A stretch of 38,888 nucleotides of DNA from Rhizobium sp. Q54 (lineage in GTDB: Bacteria; Pseudomonadota; Alphaproteobacteria; Rhizobiales; Beijerinckiaceae): positions 1-38,888 of the forward strand of contig CAMDOY010000002.1 in NCBI GenBank assembly GCA_945903655.1. The letters run 5' to 3'. The notes under the pieces were generated by a model. The model was not told the DNA's origin. It ran no database searches and saw nothing but the letters and a program-made list of their open reading frames with translations. Position numbers and translations under genes: made by a program. This document shows, in pieces, positions 2 to 20,005 of the stretch (position 1 is its first letter; every line of letters starts with the position of its first letter).

Positions 2-2578
2 CAATCAGCGCTCCTGATACAACCCGATTTCGCGGACGCATACTATAATCTGGGCGTTGCGCTACAACAGCAAGAATATCTCGTTGCCGCCTTGGAAAAT
101 TATGATCGCGCGCTGGCGGTGAAGCCAAGTTACGTTGATGCATACAACAATCGCGGCAATGTTCTCAATGGTCTAACACGCCTGGCGGAGGCTCTGTCTA
201 GTTTTGAATGCGCCATTGCAATTGAACCGCATCGCGCCGATCTCTATTTCAATAGCGGAATTTCACTTAAACTGACGGGGCGCCTGGAGGCGTCCCTTCG
301 CAGTTTCAAGACGGCGATTCTCATAAAGGAAGATTATTTAGCTTCTTTGAGCAATCAGGGCGCCGTTCTCCATGAATTGAGCCGACACGAGGAAGCCCTC
401 GAAAGCTTTCAAATCGCCAGCATGGTCAGGCCTGACGACGCCGGCGCCTATAATCATCAAGGGCTTATTTTGTCCCAATTACAAAGGGAGTCTGACGCTC
501 TGGACGCCTACGGTAAGGCTATCCTGATCGATCCAAGTTCGGCTGAAATTTTCTATAATCAAGGAAACGCTTTTCAACAGTTAAAGATGTTCGAAACAGC
601 GGTGGCGAGTTTCGAAAAAGCGATTTCACTCAAACCGGATCATGCCGAGGCGTTTTTTAGCCGAGGCTTCGCCCTCCATGAATTTGGGAATTTGGAAGGC
701 GCGCTGCAAGATTACATGGAAGCGGTTCGCATCAGACCCGACTATGCCGAGGCCTTCAACAGCATTGGCGTCACGCTACTGGAATTGCACAGGGCGCAGG
801 ACGCCGTGATGAATTTTGACAAGGCTACATCTCTCAAACAGGACTATGTCGAAGCCTATAACAATCGGGGCGTTGCTCTCAAGGAACTGAAAAGATTCGA
901 GGGCGCGCAGATAAGCTATGAGAAAGCGATATCCATCAATCCGAATTATGCCGAAGCCTACTACAATTATGGATTGGCGCTGCAAGACTTCAAAAGTTTT
1001 GGCGCTGCATTGACAAGCTATGAAAAGGTCATCGTTCTTAATCCACACCATATGGAAGCTTACAACAATCTTGGCGCCTTGTTCAAAGAATCCAATGTCT
1101 TCGAGGAAGCCCGCGTCAATTTTTTAAAAGTTCTGGAATTGAAAATGGGTGCGGAAAAGCTCACTGATCAAATAGAGCGATGGTTCGCGGATTTCATCTC
1201 GATCGATTTTCAACCAGCAAATTTCGAGTCGCAACAAGAGCTCGAGACATTCCTGGTTAACCTCGAAGAAAAAATAGATCGGTGCCTGGGAAATTTCGAA
1301 AGTGTACGGGAGCCGGCTGACCTCTTCCAGCCTGTCATTGACCAGTTTATGTTCAACATGAACGGCTTTTATATCGCCTACTTGCAAGAAAACGTCGTGG
1401 ATTTGATGACGAAATATTCTTGCCTGCTGTCAAAAGCGCTGGGACTGGACAGGGCGCCGGTCCGCAAAAAGCGTCAAGCCACAGGTAAAATAAAACTGGG
1501 CCTGGCCTCCGGTCTTCTGAAGTCGCACAACGGCGCCAACTGGGCTTATAATTGGCTTGCGCATTTGCCTGATGATTACGAAATTTTCACCTATGCCTTC
1601 AATACCGACAGCGACTGGCTGACGCAAAAGTTCAGCGCTTTGGGAACCCATCGATGTCTGCGGTTCGATAAAGACACCTTCCGGCGCGCCATCGAGATCA
1701 TGCTTGATGATGAACTCGATCTCCTCATGCTTCCGGATGTCGGAATGACCTCCGCCAGCCGCATCCTGTCCTTACATCGCGTAGCGCCGGTCCAATTCAC
1801 CGCCTGGGGACATCCCCTCACCACCGGCTCGGAAAATATAGACTTTTTCCTGTCCAGCGATCTCATGGAGTCCGACCAGGCCCAGTCCCATTATTCAGAG
1901 CGATTGATCCGTCTGCCGAACCTCGGCCTGTACCTTGCGCCTCCCCAACCCCGCGAAATCACAAGGCGAAACTTTTCCTTGCCTGACGGGATGGTTCGCT
2001 TTGGTTGCTTGCAATCACTTTTCAAATATCTACCAAAATATGACTTCATATTGCCCTTGATAGCGCATCAGGTCCCTCAAGCGCTTTTTGTCTTTCTGGA
2101 AGGGATTCCGCATTACGCAACGGACATTCTGAAAAAACGGCTTGCTCAGGCGTTTCGAAGCCATGGGCTTGATTATGATCATCATGTCAAATTCTTGCCT
2201 CGGGTGAGTGAATCCGAATACTTCGATTTGGTGGCGCAGATGGATGTTGTTCTGGACTCCATCGGCTGGACGGGCGGCAACACCAGTTTGCAAGCTTTCG
2301 AAGCGGGAAAGCCGATCGTCACCCTCCCCGGGGAATTCATGCGCGGGCGCCATACATATGCGATGTTCCGAATGATGGGGCTGGATCATTATGTTGCGAC
2401 ATCAACGGATGACTTTATCCATAAGGCCGTTCAATTCGGAACCGACCACGAACTGCGTCGACAGTTTGAACGGGATGTGATGGCGCGCAAACCTGCACTT
2501 TGTGAAGACAAAACCTTCATCAGACAATTTGATAAGTTTCTCAAAAGCGCCTCAGGACGGAGTGCTGAGGGCTCTTGA
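2..2578 (+). CDS. TPR-repeat protein with C-terminal O-GlcNAc transferase/SPINDLY-like (GT41-type) domain, 5'-truncated by window start
   Basis: The frame is open to the window edge (…PDFADAYYNLGVALQQQEYLVAALENYDRA…), so the listed TTG start at 92 is unlikely to be real. About 11 successive 34-aa TPR units of the form 'xxAEAYxNxGxAL…A…xYxKAIxxxP' are followed by 'VAPVQFTAWGHPLTTGSENIDFFLSSDLMES…YSERLIRLPNLGLYL' and 'DVVLDSIGWTGGNTSLQAFEAGKPIVTLPGEFMRGRHTYAMFRMMGL', typical of bacterial OGT-like domains. Confidence 0.9.
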   Translation, partial: QSALLIQPDFADAYYNLGVALQQQEYLVAALENYDRALAVKPSYVDAYNNRGNVLNGLTRLAEALSSFECAIAIEPHRADLYFNSGISLKLTGRLEASLRSFKTAILIKEDYLASLSNQGAVLHELSRHEEALESFQIASMVRPDDAGAYNHQGLILSQLQRESDALDAYGKAILIDPSSAEIFYNQGNAFQQLKMFETAVASFEKAISLKPDHAEAFFSRGFALHEFGNLEGALQDYMEAVRIRPDYAEAFNSIGVTLLELHRAQDAVMNFDKATSLKQDYVEAYNNRGVALKELKRFEGAQISYEKAISINPNYAEAYYNYGLALQDFKSFGAALTSYEKVIVLNPHHMEAYNNLGALFKESNVFEEARVNFLKVLELKMGAEKLTDQIERWFADFISIDFQPANFESQQELETFLVNLEEKIDRCLGNFESVREPADLFQPVIDQFMFNMNGFYIAYLQENVVDLMTKYSCLLSKALGLDRAPVRKKRQATGKIKLGLASGLLKSHNGANWAYNWLAHLPDDYEIFTYAFNTDSDWLTQKFSALGTHRCLRFDKDTFRRAIEIMLDDELDLLMLPDVGMTSASRILSLHRVAPVQFTAWGHPLTTGSENIDFFLSSDLMESDQAQSHYSERLIRLPNLGLYLAPPQPREITRRNFSLPDGMVRFGCLQSLFKYLPKYDFILPLIAHQVPQALFVFLEGIPHYATDILKKRLAQAFRSHGLDYDHHVKFLPRVSESEYFDLVAQMDVVLDSIGWTGGNTSLQAFEAGKPIVTLPGEFMRGRHTYAMFRMMGLDHYVATSTDDFIHKAVQFGTDHELRRQFERDVMARKPALCEDKTFIRQFDKFLKSASGRSAEGS

Positions 2579-16193: not shown

Positions 16194-17204
16194 ATGACCA
16201 TCGCCCGCCGCAGCCTGTTGCAGGGAAGCGCAGCCCTTCTCGCCAGCCCCGCCCTGCCCGCCCTCGCCCAGCAGCGCGTGCGCGCGCGCATCGGCGTACT
16301 GCAGACCGCAGGCGCCGGCCCCATGTATCTGGCGCTGGAGCGGGGCTATTTCGCCGCCGAGGGACTGGATGCGGAGATCATCAAGTTCGACAGCGCCCAG
16401 CCGCTGGCGGTGTCGCTGGCGGCGGGGGATATCGAGTTTGGCGCCACGAGCCTTGCGGTCGGCTTCTACAATCTGGCGTCGCAAGGCCTCATGCGCATCA
16501 TCGCCGCCCAGGGGCGCGACAATCCGGATTTTCCCAACAATGGATTCGTGGTCTCCAACGAGGCCTGGGAAAAGGGCTTCCGCAGCTACAAGGATATGGC
16601 GGGCCGCTCGGTGGGCGTCTCGACCCTGGGCTCCGCGCCCCATTATTGCGTGGGCCTGCTGGCCGACAAATATGGCGTGCCCATGAGCAAGATCGATGTG
16701 CAGACGCTCAAGACCAATCCCAATATCGTGGCGACCATCGCCAGCAACCGCATCGACGCGGCCATCACGCCCTCCACCTTCGCCCTGTCGATCACCCGCA
16801 ACAATCAGGGCAAGCTGCTGGGCTGGGTGGGCGACGAGAGCCCCTGGCAGCTCGGCGCCGCCTATACCACCACCAAGCTCGCAGATGGGCGCGGCGAGGA
16901 CGTGAAGAAGTTCCTGCGCGCCTACAAGAAGCGCATGGCGGACTATGCCGACGCCTTCATCACCGCAGATGGCAAGCGCAAGGACGGACCAACCGCCGAC
17001 GCAGTGCTCGCGATCCTCTCGAAATATCTCGACCAGCCCGTGGAGCTGCTGCGCGCGGGCATCAGCTATGTGGACCGCCAGGCCCGCCTCGACGGCCCCG
17101 ACATCGCCCGGCAGGTGAGCTGGTACAAGGCGCAGGGGCTGCTGGAGGGGAATGTGGATGTGGGGGCGTTGATCGATAAGCGGTATGCGGAGTTGTTGCC
17201 GTAG
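16194..17204 (+). CDS. ABC transporter substrate-binding protein (NMT1/THI5/SsuA-like)
   Basis: Twin-arginine-like signal 'MTIARRSLLQGSAALLASPALPALAQQ', then 'RIGVLQTAGAGPMYLALERGYFAAEGLDAEIIKFDSAQPLAVSLAAGDIEFGATSL'. RBS-like AAAGGAGAAAC upstream. No permease or ATPase adjacent. Confidence 0.88.
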   Translation: MTIARRSLLQGSAALLASPALPALAQQRVRARIGVLQTAGAGPMYLALERGYFAAEGLDAEIIKFDSAQPLAVSLAAGDIEFGATSLAVGFYNLASQGLMRIIAAQGRDNPDFPNNGFVVSNEAWEKGFRSYKDMAGRSVGVSTLGSAPHYCVGLLADKYGVPMSKIDVQTLKTNPNIVATIASNRIDAAITPSTFALSITRNNQGKLLGWVGDESPWQLGAAYTTTKLADGRGEDVKKFLRAYKKRMADYADAFITADGKRKDGPTADAVLAILSKYLDQPVELLRAGISYVDRQARLDGPDIARQVSWYKAQGLLEGNVDVGALIDKRYAELLP

Positions 17205-17311
17205 GGGGAATTGGAAGCGCCAGTGAAGCAGGGTTGAAATTCATTTTAAGAAAGGATTTATATAGCCATGCTTAACTTCGGTTTGCGACCCGCTACAGGA
17301 CTAACTGCTCG

Positions 17312-18448
17312 ATGTTTGAGGGCAAAACATTCAAAATCAGATACATAGGTTCCCGTTTCGATGGCGGGCGACTTCCGTTGGAGGTGTTGTCCGACCTTTC
17401 CGCGTTTCGTGAATTGTTGCTGACCTTCGCGAAGGAGAGATGGCGCAAATCGAATGCGGGTCGGCGGCGGCTGCCAAGGGGGTTTGATCAAAGCTTTACT
17501 TATGACCTGATTGGCATTTCGAACGGTAGCGCTGTCGCCCAACTCGATTCGCGTCCTCGGCCCGGCCAGGAATCGCTCCCGGGCTTCAGTCAATTCGAGG
17601 AAATCGCGACCGGCTCTTACAACGAAGTTCTGGCTCACATTGACTTCGCCTCGAACCAACAATCTCCACCAGCTCTGACATCCGAGCAAGCTGCCGCTTT
17701 CAACCGGTTTGGTTCTGCGCTGAACGATGACGAAAGGATCGAATTTGAAGGCAGCCGAGGCTCAGACGGAAACATCATTTTTCTTGATACGCATAGAAGA
17801 AAAAATCTTATCACCCGCGGTGGGCATCGATACCAATTGCGAATTAACGGGATAGGGGACCTTGCCGGGCTGCACAGGAAGGGTCATATCGCAGTTCAAA
17901 CTCACAAATATGGTGAGATTAAAATTCCAATCGAGCCGGGTCGGGTCAAAGACGAGTTCTGCGTCAGGGAAAACCTTGGTGCTCCAGTTCAGTTCTCATT
18001 GTTGATCGAACTTGACGCCAAGGATAGATCCAAAAAGGCTAGATACAAATCTGTCAAACAGGTGTACGAGGTCGAACTGATCGATCAGGAGAGATCGGAC
18101 AGCGTCATGAAGTGCATTCAAAGGATGACTGAACTAAGACAGCTGGAAAACGGCTGGCTTGACGGCTCAGGCCTTCGTCCCACAGACGCAGCCATAGGTG
18201 CAGCTGAGCTTTTCTTGAACAAGCGCCCAGACCTCGCCAGCAGCTTTCGCATTTACCCGATGGAGAACGGAGGCGTAGCCTTTGAGTTCGAATTAAGGGG
18301 CTGGGAATTTTCCATCGAGTTCGGGCCGGACGGTCGCGTTGAAATGTTTGGGGTCGAGATAAACGGTCCCGACGAAATGGAGCCAAAGACTTTTGATCGA
18401 GTAGACGAACTTTTCCTTGCTGAGTTTGATTCACGCGCGACTGGCTGA
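17312..18448 (+). CDS. uncharacterised protein, first gene of a two-gene cassette
   Basis: 378-aa ORF in lower-GC DNA. N-terminus 'FKIRYIGSRFDGGRLPLEVLSDLSAFRELLLTFAKERWRK…LPRGFDQSFTYDLIGISNGSAVAQLDSR', C-terminus 'LENGWLDGSGLRPTDAAIGAAELFL…YPMENGGVAFEFELRGWEFSIEFGPDGRVEMFGVEI'. No catalytic motif recognised. Confidence 0.8.
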   Translation: MFEGKTFKIRYIGSRFDGGRLPLEVLSDLSAFRELLLTFAKERWRKSNAGRRRLPRGFDQSFTYDLIGISNGSAVAQLDSRPRPGQESLPGFSQFEEIATGSYNEVLAHIDFASNQQSPPALTSEQAAAFNRFGSALNDDERIEFEGSRGSDGNIIFLDTHRRKNLITRGGHRYQLRINGIGDLAGLHRKGHIAVQTHKYGEIKIPIEPGRVKDEFCVRENLGAPVQFSLLIELDAKDRSKKARYKSVKQVYEVELIDQERSDSVMKCIQRMTELRQLENGWLDGSGLRPTDAAIGAAELFLNKRPDLASSFRIYPMENGGVAFEFELRGWEFSIEFGPDGRVEMFGVEINGPDEMEPKTFDRVDELFLAEFDSRATG

Positions 18449-18458
18449 GATCTCTTCC

Positions 18459-18860
18459 ATGACCCAATTGACCGACCATATGGAGCTTTTGTTCAGGCAA
18501 ATCCATCCTCAGTTCATTGAAGATGGCTTGTCAACAAGTCAGGCATTCCGTCCGACTCGAAAAGATCACGGCCAGCTTTCGGTCGATAGATCAGCGCTAA
18601 CGACCGCCTCCGAATCATACCATCTTTATGTGGGCAGTGGTCTTGCGTCCAACGCAGTCTATGGCCTGACTGTAGGCGAGTGTGGTGCAGAAAAGTTACC
18701 TTGCTTGGGGGACCCAATCAAAGAAAGCACAACAGCGCCTGCCAATGCGGCACATGCTGTCATCGATTTTAACGACCACTCAGAAAGCAGATGGAAGACC
18801 AAATCCCAGAGATTGAAGCTAAACGCGATTGCAAGAGGCCAACTTCATCCTCCCCCATAA
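18459..18860 (+). CDS. uncharacterised small protein, second gene of the two-gene cassette
   Basis: Starts 10 nt after the upstream stop (MTQLTDHMELLFRQIHPQFIEDGLSTSQAFRPTRKDHGQLSVDRSALTTASESYHLYV…VYGLTVGECGAEKLPCLGDP…HAVIDF…KKSQRLKLNAIARGQL-like tail). It resembles a widespread uncharacterised family from memory; not searched. Start could be 18480. Confidence 0.72.
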   Translation: MTQLTDHMELLFRQIHPQFIEDGLSTSQAFRPTRKDHGQLSVDRSALTTASESYHLYVGSGLASNAVYGLTVGECGAEKLPCLGDPIKESTTAPANAAHAVIDFNDHSESRWKTKSQRLKLNAIARGQLHPPP

Positions 18861-18877
18861 CGCCTTCAACCAGCCCC

Positions 18878-20005
18878 CTACTCCCCCGCCAAAGCCATAT
18901 CATCCCGATGGATCATCTCCGCCCGCCCGGGAACCCCCAGCACCGCCTCGATGTCCCGCGAATTGCGTCCCACCAGTTGCCCCGCCTCGCCCGCGTCATA
19001 GGCCACCAACCCACGGCCGATTTCGGCGCCTGAGGGGTCGCGCAGGACCACGCAGTCGCCCCGGTCGAAATTGCCTTCCACGCGGGTGACGCCTGCGGGC
19101 AGCAGGCTCTTGCCGGAGAAGAGGGCGCGGGCGGCGCCAGCGTCCACATGCACTGTGCCGCGCGGCTCAAGCGATCCGGCGATCCATTTCTTGCGGGCGG
19201 TGACCGGCGTTGAAGGCGTCAGGAACCAGGTGCAGGGCGCACCCTGTGCGATCCGTCGAATCGGATTGCGCACCCTTCCATCGGCGATGATCATATGGGC
19301 GCCGCCGGTGGTGGCGATCTTGCCCGCCTCGATCTTGGTGCGCATGCCCCCGCGCGAGAGTTCCGAGGCGGCGCCCCCCGCCATGGCCTCGATCTCGAAG
19401 GTGATGCGCGGCACCACGGGGATCAGCCTTGCGGAAGGATCATCCTTCGGCGGCGCGGTGTAGAGGCCCTCGATGTCCGAGAGCAGGATCAGCAGATCGG
19501 CGCTCGCCATGGTGGCGACGCGGGCGGCGAGGCGGTCGTTGTCGCCATAGCGGATCTCGGTGGTGGCCACCGTGTCGTTCTCGTTGATGACGGGCACCGC
19601 GCGCATGTCGAGCAGACGCCCGATGGTCTCGCGGGCGTTGAGATAGCGGCGGCGCTCTTCGGTGTCATTCAGCGTGACGAGAATCTGCCCCGCCGTGATG
19701 CCGCGCTGGCCAAGGGCCTGCGCCCAGGTGCGGGCGAGCTCGATCTGGCCCACGGCGGCCGCCGCCTGGCTGTCTTCGAGGCGCAGCGGACCCTTGGGCA
19801 GTTTCAGCACCGTGCGCCCCAGCGCGATGGAGCCGGAGGAGACCGCCAGCACATCCGCCCCGCGCCGATGCAATTCGGCCAGATCGTCCACCAGCGCCTC
19901 GAGCCATTCCTGCTTGAGCAGCCCCGCCGTCTGGTCCACCAGCAGGGAGGAGCCGACCTTGACGACGATGCGGCGGAACGAGGCGAGGGTGGGGGTTGCG
20001 CTCAC
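18878..20005 (-). CDS. proB: glutamate 5-kinase
   Basis: '[14 protein letters not shown]', '[48 protein letters not shown]', '[50 protein letters not shown]', C-terminal PUA-like region. Confidence 0.96.

Follow-up and report, generated by a model that had tools for sequence, protein, structure and literature searches.

The two genes that stand beside proB in the DNA analysed here (a stretch of 38,888 nucleotides, referred to as the window) are, as judged from profile matches along almost their entire length, a copy of the catalogued candidate defence family PDC-M32. Relatives of the two genes, termed A and B, occur in about 60 genomes from more than 10 phyla, where they are kept together as a pair and repeatedly found inside type I restriction-modification (R-M) operons. 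We propose, with moderate confidence, that PDC-M32 is a two-protein guard module acting in an abortive-infection-like or toxin-antitoxin-like manner.

The assignment rests on PADLOC-DB, in which the PDC-M32A profile covered residues 3-375 of A (384-position model) and the PDC-M32B profile residues 8-130 of B (123-position model), with the E-values given in Table 1. Neither Pfam nor NCBIfam provided a named model for the window's A or B, and the PHROGs matches belonged to two families of unknown function. The earlier note had presented the cassette as undescribed, a claim of novelty that falls because PADLOC-DB already lists both proteins as the candidate PDC-M32A/B; the function guessed there, a toxin-antitoxin, anti-phage or other island-borne module, has gained in plausibility. 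As candidates obtained by a guilt-by-embedding approach, the PDC systems are either unpublished or unvalidated (PMC12988326), and PDC-M32 was reported in 2025 in Sinorhizobium meliloti prophages without a functional test (PMC12429752). Our literature search for a published test of PDC-M32, be it for phage protection or for toxin-antitoxin or anti-phage activity, found none. PDC-M63, which belongs to the same set of catalogued candidates, afforded no detectable defence in a native-host test (PMC12409345); this system (phrog_6603) shows some likeness to PDC-M32, its B protein being weakly similar to residues 1-70 of A (E 0.02-0.03), while its architecture differs.

With the catalogued PDC-M32 entry, the window copy shares both genes, their order, their size and full-length profile matches. 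It differs from the usual PDC-M32 arrangement by a gap of 10 nt between the stop codon of A and the start of B in place of a 4-nt overlap, and from the copies embedded in hsd operons by its free-standing position next to proB. The nearest PDC-M32 relative seen, located on plasmid pRLN2 of Rhizobium leguminosarum, is only about 50% identical to the window copy (50% for protein A).

Table 1 Features of the cassette, its chromosomal flanks and the domains of protein A, in window coordinates.
Feature	Position	Strand	Evidence and remarks
NMT1-like periplasmic binding protein, flanking chromosome	16194..17204	+	PF09084; same place in L103
Low-GC cassette, acquired as judged from sequence	17206..18877	.	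blastn breakpoints vs L102/L103; 51% GC
Gene A, PDC-M32A family, predicted three-domain regulator/sensor	17312..18448	+	378 aa; PADLOC PDLC04577 3.9e-114; AlphaFold2 pLDDT 91.7
A, N-terminal domain, residues 1-170	17312..17821	+	alignments; invariant G13 R15 P22 A40 G72 S73 E141 R163
A, predicted OB-like barrel, residues 172-257	17825..18082	+	model: five strands, order b1-b2-b3-alpha-b4-b5
A, C-terminal domain, residues 258-378	18083..18445	+	motif GWLDG ... YPxxGGV ... E
Gene B, PDC-M32B family, predicted effector	18459..18860	+	133 aa, ATG start; PADLOC PDLC04579 4e-36; AlphaFold2 pLDDT 97
proB, flanking chromosome	18878..20005	-	PF00696 and PF01472

The cassette and its insertion site

Both plus-strand reading frames described earlier (378 aa and about 133 aa, 10 nt apart) were confirmed at the positions listed in Table 1, and the limits that had been drawn around them (17205-18877) proved a near-exact match to the breakpoints detected by blastn: homology between the window and its nearest relative, whose proB is 98% identical, ends at 17206 and restarts at 18877. 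At the same site, this relative (G005; L103 5171-8399) carries a different stretch of 3.2 kb coding for a VOC protein, a small TAT-signal protein and a GMC oxidoreductase. As other genes thus occupy the space between the breakpoints, the site is variable and the A-B cassette a discrete unit within it.

For a wider comparison, we extracted the proB region from 29 congeneric genomes and read 17 longer stretches. The genes obg, proB and proA adjoin in many congeners, with about 100-300 bp between proB and proA, compared with 3.9 kb in the window, where CorA, the NMT1-like protein, A and B intervene. The earlier suggestion that proB and proA have been parted was therefore right, but since CorA and the NMT1-like protein also lie in between, the cassette accounts for only part of the separating DNA. 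Within the genus, the proB-proA interval is a recurrent insertion point. The longest direct repeats at the cassette ends measured 8 nt, which we took as chance, and because they are no longer than this we claim no insertion mechanism.

The GC content is 51.0% in the cassette and averages 64.1% over the window; relative to windows of equal length, the cassette has a z of -3.2. Mean values amount to 51.6% for A (GC3 56%) and 50.0% for B (GC3 49%), whereas the flanking proA, CorA, NMT1, proB and obg genes range from 61 to 69% (GC3 80-87%), so that both GC and GC3 of the cassette genes differ from those of the flanking genes. Two 60-base samples counted by hand in the earlier note, 40% at 17761-17820 and 76.7% at 19321-19380, were correct, although they represent extremes. 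Among equal-length windows, only a block at about 1-2578 showed a lower GC content than the cassette. This block at the start of the window (92-2578, about 49% GC) encodes an 828-aa tetratricopeptide-repeat protein, probably of the SPINDLY/O-GlcNAc-transferase type, and appears to have been acquired separately.

A search of 100 genomes related to the source genome brought up no relative of A, and 386 other genomes of the class yielded no PDC-M32A match. Together, the absence from relatives, the shift in GC and GC3 and the exact homology breakpoints show, as far as sequence comparison reaches, that the cassette was acquired horizontally, as had been suspected from its base composition. Searches of the cassette for tRNAs, Rfam RNAs and sigma-70-like promoters returned nothing beyond chance. 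On contig C334 of the source genome (G000), two RES-domain proteins are encoded close together (L126, L139).

Pairing, spread and genomic neighbours of PDC-M32

A scan of the GTDB representative genomes with the B alignment alone yielded 60 loci, which are distributed over Pseudomonadota, Magnetococcales, Desulfobacterota, Actinomycetota, Acidobacteriota, Planctomycetota, Verrucomicrobiota/Lentisphaerae, Chloroflexota, Spirochaetota, Bacteroidota, Riflebacteria and others. In essentially all of these loci, a relative of A is located directly 5' of B, the exceptions being truncated contigs, L042 with its broken B and L063, where a second copy of B is decayed. The impression voiced earlier, that homologues of the two genes recur as a pair in accessory DNA, was thereby borne out, and the pair is maintained far beyond close relatives. 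The two genes overlap by 4 nt in 49 of the 63 tabulated pairs; the small, co-directional and overlapping arrangement looked for in type II toxin-antitoxin systems is hence present in the family, with the 10-nt gap in the copy studied here.

Both genes were also found, in the same order, on three plasmids, namely pRLN2 of Rhizobium leguminosarum and one each from Limnohabitans and Rhodococcus, and IMG/VR contributed five loci on four contigs, including L071. A search of 50,697 phage genomes for the pair gave no match, and complete Escherichia coli genomes, queried at DNA level with the Kosakonia copy, contained no relative.

Operon calls were based on HsdM, HsdS and HsdR profiles grown from the PDC-M32 loci themselves. 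In at least 14 loci (L026, L033, L034, L035, L037, L044 of Diaphorobacter nitroreducens, L046, L047, L048, L051, L052 of Thiocystis violacea, L059, L062 and L063), hsdM and hsdS enclose the pair, all on one strand, and embedded pairs of this kind occur in Pseudomonadota, Magnetococcales, Desulfobacterota, Planctomycetota and Verrucomicrobiota/Lentisphaerae. In L033, L046 and L052 the pair overlaps both of its hsd-operon neighbours by 4 nt; in L034 and L048 the pair is separated from hsdS by additional genes. In further loci, a single hsd gene adjoins the pair before the end of the contig is reached. Among the nearest-neighbour proteins, 13 of 111 matched HsdS models and 7 of 111 the N6 methylase family; since these numbers come without a matched random background, they are given as counts and not as an enrichment statistic.

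Most loci have no adjacent type I hsd gene. The neighbours in such loci include matches to PglW, DrmC, MzaA, MkoA, PD-T4-6, a type II restriction endonuclease and a type III methyltransferase, and elsewhere a phage capsid gene (L029), a Uma2 nuclease (L008) or plasmid toxin-antitoxin genes (L004) were encountered, while some free-standing pairs lie beside housekeeping genes such as rpoD and ribD or other riboflavin genes. In a Planctomycete (L065 4297-8574), the pair is preceded by a NERD-kinase protein of 1425 aa, a type of protein to which the PADLOC PglW model matches. The association with defence loci anticipated in the earlier note thus exists for the PDC-M32 family, whose members are embedded in hsd operons and adjoin other defence genes, but not for the window copy, beside which neither a defence gene nor a type I hsd gene is located.

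Domain anatomy of protein A and fold of protein B

Alignments and an AlphaFold2 model of A, computed with 50 natural sequences, divide the protein into three domains (Table 1). Foldseek revealed a weak OB-type similarity of the predicted barrel to IF1, Stn1 and YgiW. Multi-domain matches of A in the PDB were dropped for their rmsd of 15-20 Å, leaving weak, partial OB-fold-like matches, and a sequence search of the PDB with the A and B profiles gave nothing credible. About nine relatives (L008, L012, L015, L018, L053, L057, L063, L066 and L068) lack the N-terminal domain or have an unrelated one, with the C-terminal domain and B being retained; in L053 and L057 its place is taken by an AF2212-like domain that scores above the Pfam cut-off. 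The AF2212-like family is known from archaeal antitoxins; this domain was seen on A in L053 and L057 only, and Pfam and NCBIfam gave no toxin or antitoxin family for the window's A or B. Alignment of the relatives shows A to be modular in its predicted layout. The C-terminal domain also occurs on its own, as a protein of 146 aa without B on a plasmid- or phage-like element of Streptomyces (L006 7959-8399), and accordingly has a wider life outside PDC-M32.

Protein B is the most conserved part of the system, with a mean pairwise identity of 0.47 compared with 0.34-0.44 for the domains of A. Its divergence is tracked best by that of the C-terminal domain of A (partial r of 0.48, versus 0.20 and 0.18 for the N-terminal and OB-like domains, respectively), a co-divergence of sequences that is no proof of contact. 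Three polar residues of B, R13, S41 and H99 (codons at 18495, 18579 and 18753), are invariant in 57 sequences and would suit an active site.

Among solved structures in the PDB, Foldseek identified none that matches B significantly, the best hit (E 0.34) being dismissed as chance, and no sequence relation of B to known toxins was detected. Comparison with BFVD brought up a viral RNA 2'-phosphotransferase, at a score below the threshold (probability 0.80, E 0.17, TM 0.41). In the model, the strand order of B resembles that of the KptA/Tpt1-type ADP-ribosyltransferase (ART) fold. The catalytic residues of ARTs are located on the first, the second and a late strand, and it is on these strands that R13, S41 and H99 are predicted to lie; unlike ARTs and KptA, however, B has no canonical H-Y-E, R-S-E or KptA motif. 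As the profile comparison with KptA and RES, carried out with shallow comparison alignments, resulted in hhalign probabilities below 1% and hence lends the ART assignment no support, an ART fold of B is kept as a lead only. A more far-reaching proposal, namely that PDC-M32 constitutes a guard module of a new type, whose B represents an unrecognised minimal enzyme fold (possibly a very divergent R-S-H ADP-ribosyltransferase) gated by a sensor A that can be re-tooled by exchange of its N-terminal domain, and that the module has been plugged repeatedly into type I operons as a safeguard against anti-restriction, appears possible but doubtful to us.

A proposed guard mechanism and competing readings

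In the mechanism that we propose, the N-terminal and OB-like domains of A would sense a nucleic-acid or infection cue, while the C-terminal domain of A would bind B and hold it in check. We infer that B is a small effector with enzyme-like chemistry, which would be freed or activated upon infection, with an antiviral outcome. Copies in hsd operons may form, by analogy with PrrC in EcoprrI, a second line of guards that comes into play upon inhibition of the type I enzyme, and free-standing copies, including that of the window, would rely on the sensing domain of A itself. A conserved C-terminal domain of A and a conserved B, combined with a variable N-terminus of A, form the pattern to be expected if B is the effector, the C-terminus of A controls it and the remainder senses. 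This pattern and the repeated, translationally coupled insertion between hsdM and hsdS, which parallels that of prrC, favour a guard or abortive-infection module.

PrrC is an anticodon nuclease that the type I enzyme keeps latent until inhibition of restriction by phage T4 sets it free (PMC3874165, PMC2610378). PDC-M32 resembles PrrC of EcoprrI, a type Ic R-M system, in being gene cargo of type I hsd operons (in the at least 14 relatives, not in the window), and a second-line guard of restriction is proposed for both. PrrC, however, combines ABC-ATPase and nuclease motifs in one protein, whereas PDC-M32 consists of two small proteins without such motifs. We saw no sequence relation between the two systems, and the members of both protein families examined (53 + 60) contained no PrrC/RloC nuclease or ABC motif and gave no credible Pfam match. 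As many loci are free-standing, some of them next to rpoD or ribD, a dependence of the pair on R-M cannot be general. The negative native-host result for PDC-M63, the failure to detect a sequence relation of B to known toxins and the isolated position of the window copy also speak against the guard proposal.

The same free-standing loci bear on the reading that A and B are accessory R-M subunits, which would tune the type I enzyme (its assembly, its choice of target, the alleviation of restriction or the protection of self-DNA) and not kill the cell. The 4-nt overlaps on both sides between hsdM and hsdS imply stoichiometric co-translation, and the predicted OB-like barrel of A could contact DNA. 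Given that most pairs have no adjacent type I hsd gene and others adjoin unrelated defence genes, the pair would have to work without HsdM, HsdS and HsdR, and we consider this reading unlikely. The roles might also be reversed, with A as the effector, for example through a nucleic-acid-acting N-terminal enzyme with the invariant residues R15, E141 and R163, and B as its inhibitor or cofactor. Such a role would agree with the invariant charged residues of this domain and with the weak similarity of the N-terminal segment of A to PDC-M63B and phrog_6603 (PADLOC/PHROG), but about nine relatives lack precisely this domain, or have another in its place, while retaining the C-terminal domain and B, and B is more conserved than every domain of A, which leaves an effector function of A quite unlikely.

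Two further readings place the pair outside host defence. Its presence on an IMG/VR contig (L071), beside a phage capsid gene (L029), on three plasmids and in a Sinorhizobium prophage (PMC12429752) would fit cargo of mobile elements that counters host defence or mediates superinfection exclusion; as the 50,697 phage genomes yielded no match, IMG/VR only a handful of contigs, and the commonest context lies inside R-M operons, we regard this as improbable. A low probability is likewise assigned to an accessory pair of non-defence function, for instance in the regulation of stress responses or metabolism, that would travel as a hitchhiker in variable DNA: insertion next to proB is general, the nearest relative carrying metabolic genes there, and some homologues lie beside rpoD or riboflavin genes, yet embedding in hsd operons has recurred across phyla and several other defence families adjoin the pair.

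Beyond the existing catalogue entry, the present analysis adds the breadth of the pairing, the count of hsdM-hsdS embeddings, a swappable predicted sensor and a protein B without a match among solved folds, and the facts gathered turn the candidate PDC-M32 into a concrete and testable system. If B is indeed an effector guarded by A and the restriction enzyme, PDC-M32 would constitute another natural suicide device housed in a type I R-M operon besides PrrC, and if the reading of B as the effector is true, B may represent a new enzyme fold.
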